From Trichocoleus desertorum NBK24 (GTDB lineage: Bacteria; Cyanobacteriota; Cyanobacteriia; FACHB-46), in NCBI RefSeq assembly GCF_030409055.1, contig NZ_CP116619.1:467628-531627 (forward strand): a stretch of 64,000 nt of DNA. The letters are read 5' to 3'. Made by a program: the position numbers and the translations under genes. Of the stretch, positions 52,664 through 64,000 are shown in pieces (position 1 is the stretch's first letter; each line of letters starts with the position of its first letter). A model generated the notes under the pieces. It did not search any database. It saw nothing but the letters and a program-made list of their open reading frames with translations, and was not told the DNA's origin.

Positions 52664-53137
52664 ATGAAATCTCGGAAACCAGGACAGTATTTTGCCTTAG
52701 TTATAGGCATCCTCTTTCTACTAATCGGCATCATGGGATTTATCCCAGCCTTAGTGAAAGACCCTACAGTATCAGCTGATGCAGCAAATCTCGGCTTTAC
52801 AACCGGATATGGGTATCTACTGGGTTTATTCCCCATCAATACCCTACACAACATTGTTCACCTGAGCGTAGGGTTTCTAGGAATTCTGGCTTCTATCTCC
52901 TTAGGCAGTTCCCGTCTCTACAGTGGAGCATTGGCCCTCTTCTACGGGCTGCTAACTATCCTGGGGCTATTTCCTGCCACTCAATCCACTTTGGGCTTTA
53001 TTCCCATTTTTGGTAATGACGTTTGGCTGCATGCTTCCACCGCTGCGATCGCAACCTACTTTGGCTTCATCGCTACACCCGATTTAGCAGAACTCACCGA
53101 GAAAAAACTATCCGAGAGAAGTATGAGCAGCGATTAA
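52664..53137 (+). CDS. DUF4383 domain membrane protein
   Basis: A 157-residue membrane protein with four hydrophobic helices (YFALVIGILFLLIGIMGFIP, then NIVHLSVGFLGILASISL, YSGALALFYGLLTILGLFP, VWLHASTAAIATYFGFIA). It carries the DUF4383 signature LGLFPINTLHNIVHLSVGFLG and the NDVWLH near the C-terminus. The function is unknown, and members often appear under stress regulation. The C-terminal tail is charged (ELTEKKLSERSMSSD). The stop overlaps the 3' end of the convergent kinase gene by 4 bp. Confidence 0.88.
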   Translation: MKSRKPGQYFALVIGILFLLIGIMGFIPALVKDPTVSADAANLGFTTGYGYLLGLFPINTLHNIVHLSVGFLGILASISLGSSRLYSGALALFYGLLTILGLFPATQSTLGFIPIFGNDVWLHASTAAIATYFGFIATPDLAELTEKKLSERSMSSD

Positions 53138-54939
53138 TGTTTCCCCCTGGGGTGATTGGGCAGTTGCACCGTAAAGGTTGTCCAACCACCTCCACTCTCC
53201 ACCTCCAGCGTGCCTTGGAGCTGCTCCACTAGACCCTTTACCAAAGATAATCCTAATCCTGTCCCTCCTTGCCTCCAAGGGTCACCATAAGGAATACGGT
53301 AAAACTTTTCGAAGATTCGAGGTAGTTGCTCAGGAGAAATTTCTGCCTGATTCCGCACTATAAAGCTAGTCATGGCATCAGTTGCTCGGACTTGCAGAAT
53401 AATCTCTCCATCTGCTGCTGTGTACTTATGGGCGTTATGCAAGAGTTCTATTAGCAACCGCTCTAAGCTACCTTGATCAACCACAAAAACTGGCAATGAT
53501 GCAGGGAGATCTAACTGAAGGCTTTGTTGGTGCGCTTTAGCCTTCAGTTGCAGGGACGCGATCAGGTTGGGAAGCCAGGTAGAAAGATCGATCGCCTCTG
53601 GCACAAAGTTGTTGTAAAGATTACTCTCTAAACGCTGCAAGTCTAGGAGGTCATTAATCAAAGCAGCTTCGCGATCGCATTCTTTCTGCAAAATTTTAAG
53701 ATATTTCTCCCGTTGTTCAGGGGTCGTGGCAGTCTGGAGTAGTTGAGATGCCATTCTAATGTTTGTTAAAGGAGTGCGGAGTTCGTGAGAAACCGTACTC
53801 AGAAAATCATCCTTGAGCAAATTGAGTTTTGCTAGCTCCTTAACCTGAGCTTGAGCTGTTTGGTAGAGCCGAGCCTGACGAATAGCAATAGCGCATTGGC
53901 TAGCGACCTGTTGCACCAGATAAATCTCGGCTTCCTGAAAGGCTCGCTCTCCCTCGCTAAAGCACCAAAGGTCACCAATGACACCCTCATGATCAGCGAT
54001 AGGACAAGCTAGAATCGCTACTCGATTTCGAGCGGGGTGGGCCGTCACTTCGCAAAATTGAAAAGTTTGACCTCGCTGAAGCCGACTGTAACCTTCAGGA
54101 AATGCTGCCATTGTCACCACTTGCCCTGCCGCAGAAGGCATTACAACTCCAGAGGCGGTATATTGATAGCGAATGGTAGAAGTTTCCCTTTTCAGGTCAT
54201 ACACAGCGGTATCACAGGAGAGCAGGTGCAGCGCGAAGGTTAACTCCCGCACCACTGTTTGCAAAATCTGGCTTTCATCCAAGCTCTCTCGCACTTTGTC
54301 CTGAATGCGTTTTAAGGTGGCTTCAAAGAGCGATCGCTGCATTAGTTCTGCATTCAGCTTTTTGATCTGTCTTTCAGCCTCTTTGCGAGCAGTAACATCA
54401 CGCAACTGCCAGCGTAACGCGATTACCTTTCCCTGCGAGTCTCGAACCAACGCCACTGTTACAGACATATCTAAGGATGGCGCTTTACGAGGTTGCAGGC
54501 GCATCTCCAACTCCTGCGGCCCATATTCCTGCCGCAGTTGTAGCAACTTGAAACGAAAAGATCTTCGCTCTAATTCGTCAACAAAAATCACTAGAGGTTT
54601 ACCAATGAGAAACTCTTTAGGTAAATTGAGCAGCGCGATCGCAGCTTGGTTAGCTTCCTGAATTTGACCATTGGCATCTGTGACAATATAACTGTCCGGA
54701 GCAAATTCAAACAGCTCCTGGTACCGTCGGCGTTCCTCATCGAGTAAGTTACGGCTAATTTGCAGCGCTTCATTTTGTTGTTGCAGCTCCTCCTCGGCAA
54801 CCTGTAGTTCTTCTAGGGCTGTAAGGAGTTGTTCATGAGTCAGTAAGTGATCTAAGTGTTCTGGGATTTGACTGTCAGCGAGATTGCTACTGGACTGCCT
54901 AAACAGTTTAATTTCCTTGATAAACCGATCTATATTCAT
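53134..54939 (-). CDS. PAS-GAF histidine kinase
   Basis: A 601-residue soluble kinase. A short N-terminal coiled-coil (EHLDHLLTHEQLLTALEELQVAEEELQQQNEAL) precedes a PAS domain (about 70-190, FEFAPDSYIVTDANGQIQEAN), a GAF domain (about 215-365), HisKA with His in FLSTVSHELRTPL (about 384) and HATPase_c (LIELLHNAHKYTAADGE, GTGLGLSLVKGL). The region from GAF onward repeats the pattern of the kinase at 47382 almost step for step (for example [20 protein letters not shown] and DKFYRIP/EKFYRIP), so they are likely duplicates that differ in input domains. No receiver is fused here. The stand-alone receiver at 50665 is a nearby candidate partner. Confidence 0.92.
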   Translation of the reverse strand: MNIDRFIKEIKLFRQSSSNLADSQIPEHLDHLLTHEQLLTALEELQVAEEELQQQNEALQISRNLLDEERRRYQELFEFAPDSYIVTDANGQIQEANQAAIALLNLPKEFLIGKPLVIFVDELERRSFRFKLLQLRQEYGPQELEMRLQPRKAPSLDMSVTVALVRDSQGKVIALRWQLRDVTARKEAERQIKKLNAELMQRSLFEATLKRIQDKVRESLDESQILQTVVRELTFALHLLSCDTAVYDLKRETSTIRYQYTASGVVMPSAAGQVVTMAAFPEGYSRLQRGQTFQFCEVTAHPARNRVAILACPIADHEGVIGDLWCFSEGERAFQEAEIYLVQQVASQCAIAIRQARLYQTAQAQVKELAKLNLLKDDFLSTVSHELRTPLTNIRMASQLLQTATTPEQREKYLKILQKECDREAALINDLLDLQRLESNLYNNFVPEAIDLSTWLPNLIASLQLKAKAHQQSLQLDLPASLPVFVVDQGSLERLLIELLHNAHKYTAADGEIILQVRATDAMTSFIVRNQAEISPEQLPRIFEKFYRIPYGDPWRQGGTGLGLSLVKGLVEQLQGTLEVESGGGWTTFTVQLPNHPRGKH

Positions 54940-55154: not shown

Positions 55155-58100
55155 TCACTCTTCCTTGAAGTAACCACGTAATTGTTCAGCCAAAATCCGT
55201 ACATAAGGCTGCTTCAAAACTGAGAAATGATCGCCAGGAATGACATGAATTTTCGTCTCGGTCGTCGTTAAGTTGTGCCAGCCCAAAGCCTTGTCTTTCC
55301 AAGCTTGACTTTGTGGTTGTGAACTTTTGAACAGGGTAATTGAACCAGAATAAATCTGAGGAACATAACGCTGTACCGCGCAACTATTGGCATAAAAGAT
55401 GCGGAGCATGGGGCTTAGCGCCAATTCTTTTAGGAGTCGAAGTCGTGAGTTGGCAGGGAGTCTAGAGGGGGCAACTCCAATAATCTTTGATCGAATTTGT
55501 TTGAAGCGCGATCGCCTTGCCCCACCAGTTGCCACTAAAGATATTAGGAGACGGAAGTAGTCCAGCCCAAATGAGGGGAGCGATTTTAGGACAGTGGTGA
55601 TGAGGAATCGCCAACTCTCCCAGGGAGACGGTTGATTACTAGGAATAGGAGCGAGGGTATCGAGTAATGCGAGCAGCGCCACTTCATGACCTGCTTGCCG
55701 CAGTTGTTGAGCCATTTCAAACGCTACCAGCCCTCCGAATGACCATCCCCCCAGATAATAAGGGCCTCGCGGCTGCATGGCTCGGATCGCCTGGATATAA
55801 TGACTCGCCATCTCCTCAATACTTTTGAGCGGCGGATGTTGACCATCTAACCCGAAAGGTTGCAGGCCATAGAAGGGTTGGTCAGTTCCTAAGTGACGCG
55901 CTAGCTCGGCATAAGGCAGCACCATTCCCATCACAGGATGGATACAGAAAAAGGGAGGTTTAGCACCCACAGGTTGCAGTGGCACAAGAGGAGACCAGGC
56001 TGGAAGTTCTGGACTTGATAATTGCTTTGCTAGTTGCTCGACTGTCGGAGCTAAAAACAGCGTCGATAAAGGTAAGGATTGCTCAAATTGCTGTTGAACT
56101 TGCTCGATCAGGCGTAGCGCCAAAAATGAGTCTCCTCCTAGGGCAAAGAAATTGTCATCAATCCCAACCTGCTCCAAGTTCAGCACTGCTGACCAAATCT
56201 GTACCAGTCGCTCTTCTGTAAGGGTACGAGGAGCAACGATCGCCACCTTCTGTCTAGAGTTGCTGAGTTCGGGCATTGGCAAAGCAGCACGATCCACTTT
56301 TCCATTCGGCGTGAGCGGCAGCTTGTCTAACAAAACTAATGTTGAGGGAATTAGGTAGTGAGGGAGACGCGATCGCAAAAACTCTCGCAACTCACCTGTT
56401 CCAACAGACTGTTGTTGACAAGGAACAATATAAGCGACTAAACATTGCTCACGGGAGGTATCCTGGCGAGCGATCGCGACTGCTACTTGAACCGCAGGAT
56501 GTTGCTGAAGGACAGCCTCAATTTCACCCAACTCAACTCGAAAACCTCGCAGCTTCATCTGGGTATCAGTCCGCCCCAAAAACTCAATATTGCCATCAGG
56601 GAGATACCGAGCGCGATCGCCAGTTTTGTGGAGAGGAGTGTGGGGTGAGGAGTGTGGGGTGAGGAGCGAGGGAGAAATAAAACGCTCAGCAGTTAGATCG
56701 GGGCGATTGAGGTAGCCACGGGCAACACCAATGCCAGCAATATACAACTCACCCACGACACCAATGGGAACAGGTTGGAGATGAGTATCTAGGATGTAGA
56801 TTTGAGTATTGGCGATCGGACGACCGATGCTAGGTTTAGCGTTATCTACCGTTAACTCGGCAACACTAGCCCAAATAGTCGCTTCGGTGGGGCCATAAGC
56901 ATTAAAGAAACGTCTTCCTTGCGCCCAACGTTTAACAATGCTACTAGAACAAGCTTCTCCTGCCGAGATCAGAACTTGCAGAGCGGGCAGAGATCCAGCG
57001 GGCAAAACAGATAAAACACTAGGAGGCAGGGTGACATGGGTAATAGCGTGATGGCGGAGAAATTGGAGTAGATCTAGTCCAGGCAGCAAAGATGTCTGAG
57101 GAGCCAGGTAGAGGGTAGCTCCGTTTGTCAAAGCCATCAGGATCTCGAAGATGGCAGCATCGAAGCTGAGGGAGGCAAATTGCAGAATGTGGCTACCAAG
57201 CTTGGGATGGAAGATTTGTCTTTGCGCTTCTACCAGGTTGCTCAGCCCTCGATGTTCGACTAAGACACCTTTAGGCTGACCTGTAGAACCCGAAGTGTAG
57301 ATGACATAAGCCAAATTGTGAGCTGTAATCTGATTAACCAGGTTGGCTGGGCTTTGTGATGCGATCGCTCTCTGCTCCTGATCTAGGCAAACAACCTGTA
57401 ACAACTCACTATCAAATAGATGCAAATGAGAAGATTGCGTGACTAAAATCTTGACTTCCGCATCAGCCAGCATGAACTGCAAGCGATCGCGAGGGTAGGT
57501 AGGGTCAAGCGGCAAATAAGCACCACCCGCCTTCCAAATGGCTAACAGACTAATCACCATTTCTGGAGAGCGATCGACACAGAGACCTACCAAAACTTCT
57601 GCTCCTACACCCAACTGTTGCAAGTGGTGAGCCAATTGATTCGCCCGCTGATTAAGTTCTTGATAGGTAAGGTGCTGGTTTCGGTAGGTCAGAGCAACGG
57701 CATCTGGAATTTGCCTAACTTGGGCTTCAAACCATTGGTGAGCACCGAGAGGAGCGACCTCGCAAGTTAAAATCTGACTCCACTCCTGCAACTGCTGACG
57801 TTCTCTTGAGGACAGAATCGGTAGCTGAGCAAGCTGTTGTTTCGGATTAACGACAACTCCTGCCAGCAATGTTTGGAAGTGCCCTAGTAGGCGAGAAATA
57901 GTAGCTGGCTCGAACAAATCAGTGCTGTAGATGGCGGTACAAGCAAGCCGATCGAGAGATTTATAAACATGAAATTCCAGATCAACGCGAGCCGTCTCTG
58001 TTTCCAGAGGTAAGCTACTAAGAACTAGTCCGGGTAGGTCTAACTTAGCGACTGGAGTATTTTGGAGCGTAAATACCACTTGAAAGAGCGGGTTTCGGCT

Positions 58101-59153
58101 CAAGTCGCGTGCGGGTTGCAACTCCTCAACCAACTTCTCAAAAGGCACCTCTTGATGAGCATAGGCAGCCAAGGTCATCTGACGAACTCGTTCTAATAAC
58201 TCGGCAAAGGTAGGATGATCAGAGAGATCAATCCGTAACACTAAACTGTTGACGAAGAATCCAATCAAGTTCTCTAGTTCAGTGAGGTTGCGATTGGCGA
58301 TCGCTGAACCCACCACAATATCTGTTTGCCCTGTATAACGGTACAACAAGGTCTGAAATGCAGCGAGCAGCGTCATAAAGAGAGACACGCCCGCGCGATC
58401 GCTCAAGCTCTCTAAAGCTGAGGTTAGTTCAGGTGATAGCTCTAGTTGTTGGGCAGTTCCTCGGTAGCTAGGCGTGACTGGACGAGGGTGGTCGGTAGGT
58501 AACTGCAATTCCGGGAGATCTTGAAGCTGTTGCCGCCAATAAGAGAGCTGCGATGCCAGTACCTTGCCTTGCAGATACTCCCGCTGCCAATGGGCGAAGT
58601 CGGCATACTGAATGGGTAACTCTGGCAAAGGAGAGGGTTGGCGTTTGAGAAAAGCAGGATAGAGCGTCGTCAACTCTCGAATCAATACCGCGATCGACCA
58701 ACCATCTGCCACAATATGATGGAAATTCAGCAATAAGATATAGTCCGTTGCATCGAGTTGCAATAATTGCGCCTGAAACAATGGCCCTTTTGTGAGATCA
58801 AAGCAGCGTCGGGCTGACTCTTGGGCAATTCGCTGGGCTGCTTCGGTGCGGGCGATCGCAGGAGTTGCTTGTAAATCTACTACAGGTAAAGATAACTGGA
58901 AACTAGGGCTAATGATTTGAGCCAGTTCTCCCTCCACCACGGCAAAGGTAGTTCGGAGAACTTCATGGCGCTGCCCAATCTCCTGAAGCGTTTGCCCTAA
59001 GGCTCCTAAATGCAAATCTCCTTGCAAGCGAATTGCAGCCGAGACATTATAAAAAGGATTCTCTGGTACGAGCTGATAGAGAAACCACAATCGCTGCTGA
59101 GCAAATGACGCCGGAAAGATAAACACTTCTTCCTGGCTGTTACTAGCTACCAC
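55155..59153 (-). CDS. Non-ribosomal peptide synthetase, terminal module (C-A-T-TE)
   Basis: A 1332-residue NRPS. Condensation domain (about 1-440) with the active HHIVADG (about 143-149). Adenylation domain (about 465-965) with YTSGSTGQPKG (about 617) and TPNGKVDR (about 947), whose Lys is the adenylate-contacting residue. Thiolation domain with LGGDSFLAL (about 1003, phosphopantetheine Ser). Thioesterase (about 1070-1332) with GGWSFGG (Ser about 1136), so the chain is released here. The pocket residues read by hand give D-A-F-T-I-A-A-I-W-K, closest to aromatic Phe-type codes. A GTG start lies 12 bp after the upstream NRPS gene, with GGGAG upstream, so both are in one operon. Confidence 0.93.
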   Translation of the reverse strand: MVASNSQEEVFIFPASFAQQRLWFLYQLVPENPFYNVSAAIRLQGDLHLGALGQTLQEIGQRHEVLRTTFAVVEGELAQIISPSFQLSLPVVDLQATPAIARTEAAQRIAQESARRCFDLTKGPLFQAQLLQLDATDYILLLNFHHIVADGWSIAVLIRELTTLYPAFLKRQPSPLPELPIQYADFAHWQREYLQGKVLASQLSYWRQQLQDLPELQLPTDHPRPVTPSYRGTAQQLELSPELTSALESLSDRAGVSLFMTLLAAFQTLLYRYTGQTDIVVGSAIANRNLTELENLIGFFVNSLVLRIDLSDHPTFAELLERVRQMTLAAYAHQEVPFEKLVEELQPARDLSRNPLFQVVFTLQNTPVAKLDLPGLVLSSLPLETETARVDLEFHVYKSLDRLACTAIYSTDLFEPATISRLLGHFQTLLAGVVVNPKQQLAQLPILSSRERQQLQEWSQILTCEVAPLGAHQWFEAQVRQIPDAVALTYRNQHLTYQELNQRANQLAHHLQQLGVGAEVLVGLCVDRSPEMVISLLAIWKAGGAYLPLDPTYPRDRLQFMLADAEVKILVTQSSHLHLFDSELLQVVCLDQEQRAIASQSPANLVNQITAHNLAYVIYTSGSTGQPKGVLVEHRGLSNLVEAQRQIFHPKLGSHILQFASLSFDAAIFEILMALTNGATLYLAPQTSLLPGLDLLQFLRHHAITHVTLPPSVLSVLPAGSLPALQVLISAGEACSSSIVKRWAQGRRFFNAYGPTEATIWASVAELTVDNAKPSIGRPIANTQIYILDTHLQPVPIGVVGELYIAGIGVARGYLNRPDLTAERFISPSLLTPHSSPHTPLHKTGDRARYLPDGNIEFLGRTDTQMKLRGFRVELGEIEAVLQQHPAVQVAVAIARQDTSREQCLVAYIVPCQQQSVGTGELREFLRSRLPHYLIPSTLVLLDKLPLTPNGKVDRAALPMPELSNSRQKVAIVAPRTLTEERLVQIWSAVLNLEQVGIDDNFFALGGDSFLALRLIEQVQQQFEQSLPLSTLFLAPTVEQLAKQLSSPELPAWSPLVPLQPVGAKPPFFCIHPVMGMVLPYAELARHLGTDQPFYGLQPFGLDGQHPPLKSIEEMASHYIQAIRAMQPRGPYYLGGWSFGGLVAFEMAQQLRQAGHEVALLALLDTLAPIPSNQPSPWESWRFLITTVLKSLPSFGLDYFRLLISLVATGGARRSRFKQIRSKIIGVAPSRLPANSRLRLLKELALSPMLRIFYANSCAVQRYVPQIYSGSITLFKSSQPQSQAWKDKALGWHNLTTTETKIHVIPGDHFSVLKQPYVRILAEQLRGYFKEE

Positions 59154-59165
59154 CTCTTATCTCCC

Positions 59166-62100
59166 TTAATTCTGATTCAAAGACGATCGCGATCGCCGAT
59201 ATGCGTCTCTAGAGAGTGGAACAATGGCAGGAATAGACGACTGGGGTTGGCTCACCTGCAAACTGTCAATTTGCTGAGCCAGTTGAGCAATAGTCGGAGA
59301 TTCAAATAAATGACGCAGAGGGAGTTCTACCGCAAAAGCATCCCGAATCCGCGAAGTCAGTTGAGTCGCGAGAAGAGAATGTCCTCCCAGCTCAAAGAAA
59401 TTATCGTGCAGACCCACTCGCTTGACACCTAGCAGTTCTGACCAAATAGAGACTAATTTTGCTTCCATCGGCGATCGCGGTGCCACATATCCTTGCGTTG
59501 ACTCTACTGGAACGGGAACAGGGAGAGCCCGACGATCAATTTTGCCGCTGGGAGTAAGCGGGAGAGTTTCTAACACGACAAAAGCAGCAGGCACCATATA
59601 GTCTGGCAGCTTTTGCTCTAGATAATTTCGGAGCTGGGGCACTAGTCGTCTCGCTAACTGCCTTTGCAGCGGTTGATTGGCGTAAGTAGACCAAGGACGA
59701 GCAGGGGCGATCGCCTCAGATCTAAGCCTCTGTCTTTGTGGCTTGAAGTCTTTATGTTGCAAGCACACATCATAGCGATCGCTCCCAACTGCGGACCAGC
59801 TCACCTTTACGTGATAAGGCAGATCTTGTTCCAAACCCCACCAAGCTTCTGGATCGATTCCAGATTCTGCCAGTTGATCTAGGGCTGTTCGCATGTGTCC
59901 CACAGTTTTGGGTGATTCTGCCTCTGCTAACCAAGCCGCCGTTGTCACTGCCGTAACCACACGAGCATTTGGTACACCCTTAATTGCCAATCTCTCCGGT
60001 TGTGCTGCAATCAAATGCTGGCGAATCATCGCGACGGTTGGCTCATTCGTCCAGTTCCACTCAAAGTCATCCGAACCTGTAGAGATAAACGGCTGTGTAT
60101 CCTGCACCTCCTGAGTTTCGTTACTTTTGTGCAGAACAACGTTGTAGCGAAACTGGGTCATCTCATTATCAGCCTGACCACGAGTGAGCTGAATCTGTAC
60201 TTCCTCGATTTGCGGAAAATGCGATCGCAACGCCTGAAAGAAGGCTGGATCAATCACCAGTTCTGGTTCCTCAAACATGGCCCGCTGAACCCGTTGCTGG
60301 AGCTGCGATCGCTCTAATGCAGGGCTAGCCTGATACATCTGCACAGAAGCATGAAAAGTAGACAACAAAGCTAAATTCCGCACATCCCCAACAAAGAGAG
60401 AACCGCCTGGAGCCAAAACTTGTAGTGCTCCCTCCAAGACTTGCAGCAAATAATCCACACTTGGGAAGTATTGCACCACCGAATTGAGCACAATCAGATC
60501 AAATCTATCTGGCTCTATATCCCTAAAGTCGTTAGCTGAGCGCTGCAATAGCTTTATTGGCGGCAACGGTTGCTGATTTAGCTGTTGCCGAATCGCCTTA
60601 AGGGAGGCTTGAGAAAAATCTGTGCCCCAGTATTCGAGGCAGTGAGGCGCAAGCTGAAATAGCAGTAATCCCGTTCCACAACCAATTTCTAGAACTCGCT
60701 GAGGTTTCAGGGTAAGAATCTGCTCCACTCGGCGATCGACCCATTCTCGCATCTGTTCAACTGGAATGGGTTGCCCCGTATAGCTGCTATTCCAACCCAC
60801 GATGTTGAACGTCGGATCAACCGAATTACTAGGCTGGGCATAGGTTTGCTCATAGAGAGTTTGCCAATGCTCTACTTGCTCCTGCTGTAGTTGCTGGGCG
60901 ATCGCTACTTCTCCTTCATGGTGATGGAGGGAGATGTAAGCGGTCAATCGTTGATCTCCTGCTAGTTCATGAACTGTGGCGATCGCTCCGTTCACTAAAG
61001 GATGCTGCTGCAAAACAGCCTCAATCTCACCCAACTCCATCCGGAAACCCCGAACCTTAACCTGTTCATCTGCTCGACCGATGAATTCTAAGGTGCCATC
61101 GGGTCGATAACGAGCGAGATCTCCAGTTTTGTAAAGAGGGGTTAGGGGAGAGGGATTAGGAGAGAGGAGTGGGAGAGAAATGAAACGCTCAGCAGTTAAC
61201 TCTGGTCGGTTGAGATATCCCCTAGCTACTCCGTCCCCACCAATGTATAACTCACCAACTACACCAATCGGCACAGGCTGTTGATAAGTATCCAAAACAT
61301 AAGTTTGGGTGTTCGCCACAGGACGACCAATGTGGGGCTTTTCGAGGCTGTCAGCTTTGTGAGTCAGTTCGGCCACTGTTGCCCAAATCGTGGTTTCTGT
61401 AGGGCCATAGGCATTAAAAAACCGTCGTCCTCTCGCCCATTTGCTCACAATTCCACCGCTACAAGCTTCTCCACCCGAAATCACTGTTTGCAACATCGGC
61501 AGGTCACTTTCTGGCAACAGGGCCAAGACCGCAGGCGGCAAAATCGCGGCAGCAATATTCTGGGTTTGGAGGAATTGAACCAGTTCTATCCCAGGCAATC
61601 GCGCTGACTGGGGCACAATGTAGAGCATACCCCCAGCACCCAGTGCCATCAGCATCTCAAAGATGGAAGCATCGAAGCTCCAAGCGCTAAATTGCAACAC
61701 CCGACTCCCCAGCGGCAAATTCAAGTGCTGCTGCGCTGCCACGACATTACAAAGCCCTCGATGCTCTACCATCACCCCTTTAGGTATCCCGGTTGAGCCA
61801 GAGGTGTAGATCACATAAGCCAACTGATCAGCTGTCACAGCACTAGTGGGAGCTGACTGCTTCTGCTGTGCAATTAACTCCTGATCTCGATCTAGACAGA
61901 TGACTTGAAGCGTCTGATCCTCTCTCGAAATGGGTTGATCACCCCCCTTTTGCAAGGAGAATGGGGAGATGTCAAACAATTCCACATGCGATCGCTGCGT
62001 CAGCAACACCGAAACCTGAGCATCTTGCAACATAAACTGGAGGCGATCGCGAGGATACTCCGGATCGAGCGGCACATAAGCACCCCCCGCCTTCCATACG

Positions 62101-63983
62101 CCCGAGATGGCAATTACAGTATCAAGAGAGCGATCGACACAGATGCCAACGAGGGTTTCTGACCCTACTCCTACTTGCTGTAAATAGTGTGCGAGTTGAT
62201 TGGCTCGTTGATCCAATTCTTGATAGGTTAGTTGCTGAGCAGCAAACACAGGCGCATCCGTGAGAGATACGGAAATTGCGTTCCAAGAGGGTGCGGCAAC
62301 CGCGATCGCATCAGGTGTTTTTTCAGCTTGGGCAGCAAATAGGTGATGAATACAAACATCCTTGTTGTACTCCACCTGAGTTTGATTCCACTCGACTAGT
62401 AGTTGATGCTGTTCAGCAGCATTGAGGATGGGCAGATAGGCAAGTCGTTGGTCTGGATTGGCAACAATTCCCTCTAGCAGCGTTTGAAAATGCCCAATCA
62501 TTCGCGTGATGGTAGTTGGCTCAAACAGCTCGGTACTGTATGCCACAAAGCCACTCAACCCCTCCCTTGGGGTATCCCAGAGACCACTCAGCCCTTCCGC
62601 TTGCTCCCATATATGGAACTCCAGATCAAACCGAGCAGTGCCAACATCCAGTTTCCAAGGAGATAGCGTCAAGCCAGGGAGGTCTAGCGGTGCCATCGGT
62701 GCATTCTGGAGGGCAAAGGCGACCTGAAACAATGGATTGCGGCTCAAGTCTCGCTCTGGATGTAGTTCTTCAACCAGCTTTTCAAACGGCACATCTTGAT
62801 GGGCGTAGGCGGCTAATGCAACCTCCCGCGATCGCTCCAGCAACTCCCGAAACGTCGGATTACCAGAGAGATCGGTTCGTAATACTAAGCTATTGACGAA
62901 AAAACCAATCAATCCCTCGATCTCACTACGGTTACGGTTGGCAATCGGAGAACCTACGGCAACATCAGTCTGCCCTGTGTAGCGGAAAAGTAGAGTTTGG
63001 AACGCAGCCAAAAGTGTCATGAAGAGGGTCGTTCCCGCCTCTTGGCTCAGTTCTTCTAAGGCTTGAGTGAGTTGGGGGGATAGCGATAAGGGAGCGATCG
63101 CACCTTTATAACTTTGGGTGGTTGGGCGAGGATGGTCGGTTGGGAGATTCAGCGCTGGCAGATTTTGTAGCTGCTGCCGCCAGTAAGATAGTTGCGACTC
63201 CAGCAGCTCTCCCTGTAGACACTGCCGCTGCCAGTGAGCAAAATCTGCATACTGAATTGGCAGCTCTGGTAAAGGAGAAGGCTTCTCCTCCGCAAAAGCT
63301 GTATAGAGCGCTCCTAGCTCTCGCATCAGCACCCCCAGCGACCAGCCATCCGAAATAATGTGATGCAGATTGAGCAGTAGTAGATATTCTGTCGCCTCTA
63401 GCTGCAATAACTTCACGCGCAGCAACGGACTAACCGTGAGATCAAAGGGAGAATGTGCTTCTGCTGTGGCGATTTGCCGAACGGTCACCTCTTGCGCCGA
63501 GGGCTCAAGCGCTTGCAGATCGTTGACTGGAATAGACAGCGGCAAAGTAGGCGAGATGATCTGTGTCGGTTGACCATCTACTTTAACAAAGCGAGTTCGG
63601 AGCGTTTCATGCCGTTGCACCACTGCCGCAAAAGCTTGTTCCAGCGCCCTTAGATGCAAATGCCCACTCAGTCGCACGGCTGAAGGCATGTTGTAGAAAG
63701 GATTTTCTGGCACCAGTTGATCGAGAAACCACAATCGCTGTTGGGCAAAGGAGAGCGGTAGTGGTTGAATGCGGGAAACTGGCTTTAGTTCAGGTGCAGT
63801 TTGATAGGCAGAGGCATGAGCTTGATTTAACCAGTGCAGCAACTCTGGCTTGCGTTGAGCGATCGCGGTTCGCAATTCGGGGGTCAAGACTCCTTCCGGG
63901 GCACTACAGCGTAGATTGGCTCCCTCTAACCACACCTGAATATCTAATTGCCGCAGATAAGCTAAAAACTCAGCCGTTGTCAA
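59166..63983 (-). CDS. Non-ribosomal peptide synthetase, N-methylating module (TubC-C-A-NMT-T)
   Basis: A 1605-residue NRPS. A TubC-type docking domain (residues 1-55, TAEFLAYLRQLDIQVWLEGANLR) is followed by a condensation domain (about 70-510, active HHIISDG about 206). Adenylation domain (about 540-1480) contains YTSGSTGIPKG (about 724) and TPSGKIDR (about 1473), with an N-methyltransferase inserted between its last core motifs (VLEIGCGTGLLLF about 1095, then VVQYFPSVDYLLQVLEG). Thiolation with GGHSLLA (about 1530). The pocket code by eye is D-A-F-I-I-G-A-I-W-K, suggesting a hydrophobic residue that is N-methylated. The TTG start is fixed by AGGAGG at 63991-63996. The docking and condensation domains imply an upstream partner beyond the window. 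Confidence 0.93.
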   Translation of the reverse strand: MTTAEFLAYLRQLDIQVWLEGANLRCSAPEGVLTPELRTAIAQRKPELLHWLNQAHASAYQTAPELKPVSRIQPLPLSFAQQRLWFLDQLVPENPFYNMPSAVRLSGHLHLRALEQAFAAVVQRHETLRTRFVKVDGQPTQIISPTLPLSIPVNDLQALEPSAQEVTVRQIATAEAHSPFDLTVSPLLRVKLLQLEATEYLLLLNLHHIISDGWSLGVLMRELGALYTAFAEEKPSPLPELPIQYADFAHWQRQCLQGELLESQLSYWRQQLQNLPALNLPTDHPRPTTQSYKGAIAPLSLSPQLTQALEELSQEAGTTLFMTLLAAFQTLLFRYTGQTDVAVGSPIANRNRSEIEGLIGFFVNSLVLRTDLSGNPTFRELLERSREVALAAYAHQDVPFEKLVEELHPERDLSRNPLFQVAFALQNAPMAPLDLPGLTLSPWKLDVGTARFDLEFHIWEQAEGLSGLWDTPREGLSGFVAYSTELFEPTTITRMIGHFQTLLEGIVANPDQRLAYLPILNAAEQHQLLVEWNQTQVEYNKDVCIHHLFAAQAEKTPDAIAVAAPSWNAISVSLTDAPVFAAQQLTYQELDQRANQLAHYLQQVGVGSETLVGICVDRSLDTVIAISGVWKAGGAYVPLDPEYPRDRLQFMLQDAQVSVLLTQRSHVELFDISPFSLQKGGDQPISREDQTLQVICLDRDQELIAQQKQSAPTSAVTADQLAYVIYTSGSTGIPKGVMVEHRGLCNVVAAQQHLNLPLGSRVLQFSAWSFDASIFEMLMALGAGGMLYIVPQSARLPGIELVQFLQTQNIAAAILPPAVLALLPESDLPMLQTVISGGEACSGGIVSKWARGRRFFNAYGPTETTIWATVAELTHKADSLEKPHIGRPVANTQTYVLDTYQQPVPIGVVGELYIGGDGVARGYLNRPELTAERFISLPLLSPNPSPLTPLYKTGDLARYRPDGTLEFIGRADEQVKVRGFRMELGEIEAVLQQHPLVNGAIATVHELAGDQRLTAYISLHHHEGEVAIAQQLQQEQVEHWQTLYEQTYAQPSNSVDPTFNIVGWNSSYTGQPIPVEQMREWVDRRVEQILTLKPQRVLEIGCGTGLLLFQLAPHCLEYWGTDFSQASLKAIRQQLNQQPLPPIKLLQRSANDFRDIEPDRFDLIVLNSVVQYFPSVDYLLQVLEGALQVLAPGGSLFVGDVRNLALLSTFHASVQMYQASPALERSQLQQRVQRAMFEEPELVIDPAFFQALRSHFPQIEEVQIQLTRGQADNEMTQFRYNVVLHKSNETQEVQDTQPFISTGSDDFEWNWTNEPTVAMIRQHLIAAQPERLAIKGVPNARVVTAVTTAAWLAEAESPKTVGHMRTALDQLAESGIDPEAWWGLEQDLPYHVKVSWSAVGSDRYDVCLQHKDFKPQRQRLRSEAIAPARPWSTYANQPLQRQLARRLVPQLRNYLEQKLPDYMVPAAFVVLETLPLTPSGKIDRRALPVPVPVESTQGYVAPRSPMEAKLVSIWSELLGVKRVGLHDNFFELGGHSLLATQLTSRIRDAFAVELPLRHLFESPTIAQLAQQIDSLQVSQPQSSIPAIVPLSRDAYRRSRSSLNQN

Positions 63984-63990
63984 AACTCCA

Positions 63991-63996
63991 CCTCCT
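63991..63996 (-). promoter_or_regulatory. Strong Shine-Dalgarno deciding the TTG start of the NRPS gene
   Basis: The complement reads AGGAGG, 7 nt before the TTG at 63983, so the unusual start codon is well supported. It also shows the gene begins inside the window. Confidence 0.8.
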
Positions 63997-64000
63997 CACG

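Follow-up and report, generated by a model that had tools for sequence, protein, structure and literature searches.

A three-module N-methylating nonribosomal peptide synthetase line of Trichocoleus desertorum NBK24 and its relatives among cyanobacteria

The window, namely the whole 64,000-nucleotide stretch of DNA analysed here, corresponds to bases 467628-531627 of the single-contig 5.46-Mb genome of Trichocoleus desertorum NBK24. Near its right end a first-pass annotation had placed two open reading frames on the minus strand and read them as the terminal part of an uncharacterised N-methylating nonribosomal peptide synthetase (NRPS) line. Both were found exactly there, and the domain makeup was confirmed by Pfam. 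The 1,605-aa protein showed TubC_N (5.6e-19), Condensation (2.6e-116), AMP-binding and PP-binding, with the methyltransferase sitting ahead of the C-terminal part of AMP-binding, and the 1,332-aa protein showed Condensation, AMP-binding, PP-binding and Thioesterase (1.8e-35); such scores exclude chance matches. The nearest solved structure to the SAM-dependent N-methyltransferase (NMT) is the interrupted adenylation domain 5wmm. All catalytic motifs of the condensation (C), adenylation (A), carrier (PCP) and thioesterase (TE) domains are intact. The features are as follows, with window coordinates unless a genome position is given.

53134..54939, minus strand: PAS-GAF-HisKA-HATPase sensor kinase, 215 bp past gene 3 and in the same orientation
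55155..59153, minus strand: gene 3, C-A-PCP-TE, 1,332 aa, GTG start
55164..55961, minus strand: type I thioesterase, residues 1065-1330 of gene 3, GWSFGG, triad Asp and His both present
56019..56219, minus strand: PCP3 carrier domain, LGGDSF, residues 979-1045
56298..57731, minus strand: A3 adenylation domain, code DAFTIAAIW, residues 475-952
57789..59117, minus strand: C3 condensation domain, HHIVADG, residues 13-455
59166..63983, minus strand: gene 2, TubC-C-A-NMT-PCP, 1,605 aa, TTG start, 4 bp shared with the end of gene 1
59259..59483, minus strand: PCP2 carrier domain, LGGHSL, residues 1501-1575 of gene 2
59784..60863, minus strand: N-methyltransferase inside the C-terminal part of A2, residues 1041-1400, motifs VLEIGCGTG and NSVVQYFP
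60954..62339, minus strand: A2 adenylation core, code DAFIIGAIW, residues 549-1010
62397..63761, minus strand: C2 condensation domain, HHIISDG, residues 75-529
63816..63977, minus strand: TubC N-terminal docking domain, residues about 3-56 (PF18563, 5.6e-19)
63980..64000, minus strand: last seven codons of gene 1, docking tail REEVEF plus stop
Genome C1:531607-534969 (L012 11607-14969): gene 1, C-A-PCP, 1,120 aa

An upstream partner outside the window had been expected, and the sequence past the right edge revealed it. Gene 1 lies directly beyond that edge, and its final codons make up the last 21 bases of the window. This refines the earlier picture, as the upstream part is one module and the whole line is thus three modules. 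Genome-wide there are three copies of the Pfam Condensation family, two in the window and one just past its right edge, together with three full amino-acid A domains and three NRPS carrier domains, all within the NRPS cluster; since the genome has only three Condensation domains, the three-module line is complete on the present assembly. Past gene 1 follow a divergent GNAT gene and gnd. On the other side, the sensor kinase adjoins the cluster in each of the three species of this genus, at a distance of 104-216 bp; it may be co-transcribed, and any role in the cluster is putative.

To place this line in a wider context, related clusters were collected and annotated in 340 cyanobacterial genomes drawn from the class. 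Related lines were present in at least 40 of them (12%, about one in eight), from nine families of the sampling scheme; G276, whose gene 1 was located in a separate step, was taken into this count. The two-gene form, found in 29 genomes, consists of C-A(Ile)-PCP and TubC-C-A(DAF[LI][IV]GAIW)-NMT-PCP-TE, so that the thioesterase is fused to the NMT module. Three-gene or related forms, which have a C-A(DAFT[IV]AA[IV]W)-PCP-TE protein or its start, were found in 11 genomes. Two congeners carry these three genes in an equivalent neighbourhood, with 87% identity for gene 2. Codes, gene overlap and docking tails are conserved across the family, the 4-bp overlap of genes 1 and 2 being seen in all GAIW-type clusters but one. 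On Nostoc plasmids the gene order is TE gene, gene 1 and NMT gene.

We next considered the substrates. Nine pocket positions were read from A4, A5 and the intervening motifs and by alignment, with the Lys of the A10 motif as the tenth. The A1 code is DAFFLGVTF (full code DAFFLGVTFK), which has been assigned to Ile, Leu or Val in cyanopeptolin synthetases (PMC2533009) and to Ile in several protease-inhibitor lines (PMC13122637). For A2 and A3, re-reading gave the same codes as had been read by hand, DAFIIGAIWK and DAFTIAAIWK, with the Lys coming from the PSGKID and PNGKVD motifs. The A-I-W ending, which had been called unusual, is real and common to both domains, but an A-[IV]-W ending occurs in 37 module-2 and 14 module-3 A domains; it is kept across a large cyanobacterial family and is therefore not peculiar to this genome. 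The suspicion that the codes match nothing known held up, as the open-access papers searched contained neither code, no exact substrate match for DAF[IL]IGAIWK or DAFT[IV]AA[IV]WK, and no product.

In the A-domain tree, the Ile-type domains of module 1 and Leu-type domains form one group (95/92), while the GAIW domains of module 2 and the window-type AAIW domains of module 3 are sisters (99/92), apart from the Ile and Leu group. A2 and A3 fall among Tyr/Phe-code domains, where resolution among the aromatic codes is weak. With moderate confidence, positions 2 and 3 are both predicted to be filled by residues resembling Phe or Tyr; the aromatic call rests on tree position because no code matched exactly. 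The Nostoc NMT module carries the code DAWFLGNVVK, whose first nine positions (DAWFLGNVV) are a common Leu code (PMC12283262, PMC7524897), so an aliphatic residue at module 2 is also allowed.

The order of the proteins can be read from their docking elements. The TubC domain of gene 2 matches the solved AerJ and TubC docking domain structures, and a REE[VI]E[FL]-type C-terminal tail was found in 41/41 gene-1 homologues, counted without the broken copy L133. Tails like these pair with beta-hairpin (TubC-type) docking domains by salt bridges from their final five residues (PMC9113145). Here an N-terminal TubC domain and a short charged tail on the upstream carrier protein occur together, as in known pairs of this kind, suggesting that the REEVEF tail of gene 1 pairs with the TubC domain of gene 2. 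In Nostoc, the same pairing places gene 1 before the NMT gene, despite the layout relative to the TE gene. In three-gene clusters, the C-terminus of gene 2 also has a conserved tail, PA[IL]VP[LV][SA]R...R...SS[LIV] (window 59166-59240, for example). It is found on NMT proteins that hand over to a TE protein, and is possibly a second docking element.

Architecture, catalytic motifs, operon coupling, docking motifs and conservation were all read directly from DNA, and the reading they favour, at a probability of about 0.7, is a complete three-module, three-protein NRPS with the predicted core (acyl?)-Ile/Val-(N-Me)Aro-Aro. Gene 1 (C1-A1-PCP1) would activate Ile or Val, with C1 probably first attaching a starter acyl group supplied in trans. 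The REEVEF tail would then dock on the TubC domain of gene 2, whose module is predicted to incorporate and N-methylate an aromatic residue or one similar in size to Phe. A further Phe/Tyr-like residue would come from gene 3, whose thioesterase would then free the peptide, either as a linear acid or cyclised. We infer the docking contact, the identities of the amino acids and of the starter, and the form of release in this scheme. Its final steps agree with the earlier proposal of an N-methylated residue, a last residue and thioesterase release, as the motifs of both the N-methyltransferase and the thioesterase are intact.

The first step depends on C1, which is first in line and well conserved and has several features of its own. 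The Gly of HHxxxDG is replaced by Glu or Asp in 41/41 Ile modules (36 FDE, 4 CDD, 1 SDE), and an acid was found at this position in 0/72 other C domains of the family set. The acidic residue is not unique, since a few unrelated C domains have it (L016, L017, L019). The signature of C1 further includes the Tyr of the FDLE[LF]Y motif (36/41) and a GxxGW insertion that is missing from other C domains. The C-domain tree was built without reference starter C domains. Fuscachelin C3, which likewise has HHxxxDE for HHxxxDG, is an active domain whose Glu contacts the amine of the acceptor; when this Glu is replaced by Gly, the domain uses less Gly and more Leu (PMC8097023). The two domains differ in position and acceptor: fuscachelin C3 is an elongation domain whose Glu favours Gly, whereas C1 stands first in line, before a module predicted for Ile/Val. 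By precedent such HHxxxDE domains work, so C1 is probably functional and adds a starter.

A serious rival, to which we give real weight though short of even odds, is that C1 is idle. It would then be structural only, gene 1 would be a plain initiation module, and the product would start with free Ile/Val (H-Ile-NMe-X-X). Consistent with this, C1 has no N-terminal docking domain, and no acyl ligase or donor carrier was linked to the clusters inspected. The genome has one other fatty-acyl-AMP ligase/ACP locus, unlinked to the NRPS (L063 4817-8944, C1:1676817-1680944, and the next genes), which encodes a fatty-acyl-AMP ligase, an acyl-CoA dehydrogenase-like protein, an ACP and then an MBOAT-like membrane protein. 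We rejected this locus, at 1.68 Mb, as a general starter supply, as its dehydrogenase occurs in 18/340 genomes, and of the roughly 40 that bear the cluster only 6 have it. A four-module relative (L041) points the same way: it has a fourth protein, A-NMT-PCP, which like gene 1 ends in REE[VI]EF. That tail suits gene 2, which seems to leave C1 with no docking partner. Against an idle C1 stand its catalytic His and Asp, both kept, its own conserved signature, a dN/dS of 0.07-0.10, about equal to those of C2 and C3, and the known activity of an HHxxxDE domain. The signature and the dN/dS also led us to reject C1 as a decaying relic. At L041 (15541-18744 and 1641-2420) the extra protein, which ends in REEVEF, may compete with gene 1 for one docking domain, and a putative Sfp-type phosphopantetheinyl transferase is encoded nearby.

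The form of the product was considered in the same way. The thioesterase could join two or more units or close a ring. The outcome would then be a ring or an oligomer, or for the two-gene form a diketopiperazine, rather than a linear tripeptide acid. The type I thioesterase with its intact triad is compatible with this, as are the two-gene relatives, in which a related thioesterase follows only two modules. N-methylation generally favours cyclisation, which also counts for such a product. On the other hand, hydrolysis and cyclisation look alike by sequence, and microginin synthetase, the nearest analogue in function, uses a C-A-PCP-TE protein to make linear peptides. We consider joining or ring closure less likely than not.

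It is very improbable that the cluster is a decaying or silent remnant. A relative in genome G104 is indeed split into several frames, but in the window all catalytic motifs are intact, dN/dS is at or below 0.26 in every domain, and the line persists in three species of the genus as well as in the at least 40 genomes of the survey. By these rates the family is under purifying selection. The split copy (L133 3948-9689) is a decayed two-gene cluster.

We then compared the line with known systems, of which the closest is the C-terminal half of microginin synthetase, known from the mic genes of Planktothrix (PMC2739229). Both have a TubC-C-A-NMT-PCP module followed by a separate C-A-PCP-TE protein, an upstream tail ending in VEF for the TubC domain, and an N-methylated penultimate residue. 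A Planktothrix plasmid cluster in our set (L069), a microginin cluster by our reading of its gene content, ends in a C-A-PCP-TE protein for an aromatic residue, with the code DASTIAAVC. Its NMT module is 46.6% identical to that of the present line, and the last-module codes differ at 239 and 331. The layout is shared except that gene 3 has no TubC domain, unlike the last protein of the microginin-type line; for the present gene 3, aromatic specificity is a prediction. A fatty-acyl ligase, ACP, PKS and aminotransferase open the microginin lines, and no such start was found in the present cluster, whose neighbours are the GNAT gene, gnd and the sensor kinase. That the two window genes form the last part of a far longer line, such as a microginin-like PKS-NRPS, is the least probable reading of all: it has in its favour the Planktothrix plasmid cluster, where TubC-C-A-NMT-PCP is followed by a TubC-C-A-PCP-TE protein, and against it the divergent GNAT gene and gnd past gene 1, the lack of further condensation domains in the genome and the same bare three genes in both congeners. 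More upstream modules are ruled out for this genome by its three C domains, unless the assembly misses a segment.

Other known systems resemble the line in part. The rhabdopeptide/xenortide-type NRPSs of Xenorhabdus and Photorhabdus also consist of single-module proteins with TubC-type docking domains, short tails and N-methyltransferase modules. Those lines work iteratively and finish with a C domain, whereas release here is by the thioesterase of gene 3, and a docking domain is present on just one of the three proteins. Cyanopeptolin and aeruginosin-type A domains have a pocket code identical to that of A1, but they sit in longer lines with other tailoring. Among open-access papers we found no N-methyl di- or tripeptide from such a cluster and nothing on the family. 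The NRPS line is uncharacterised and ordinary in kind.

Its spread, its conservation and the modified C1 make the line a reasonable target for product discovery. It is kept in about 12% of sampled genomes, often as bare synthetase genes, and two or three genes move easily into a host, which makes it a good gene-to-product target. The natural two- and three-module forms bear on how a module is gained or lost ahead of a thioesterase, and the fixed Glu/Asp in C1 offers a chance to test the role of this residue. Codes with W at position 331 would widen A-domain prediction once their substrate is assigned. A bolder idea, which we regard as speculative and unlikely in full, is a phylum-wide cyanobacterial family of minimal two- and three-module N-methylating NRPSs in which the acidic HHxxxDE/D C1 would be a dedicated initiator using a generic cellular acyl donor, one module would have been gained or lost between PCP2 and the thioesterase, and the product would be a small peptide not seen to date that serves a general physiological function.

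Two further observations were made among the relatives. In 9 genomes, spread over several families, a gene close to the cluster encodes a membrane-anchored alpha/beta hydrolase of some 370 aa (L014 245-1549, L015 4395-5555, L065 10468-11577 and six more loci). We considered it as a conserved accessory gene: it is near 9 clusters, yet in the window's genome the homologue (C1:1257853-1258956, 64% identity) is unlinked, so linkage is not required. On a plasmid of Nostoc sp. C052 (L068 11926-16551), in a stretch without gene 1, the start of the TE gene and its C domain run in frame into the A-NMT-PCP portion of the NMT gene, and this fused gene looks like a natural recombination.
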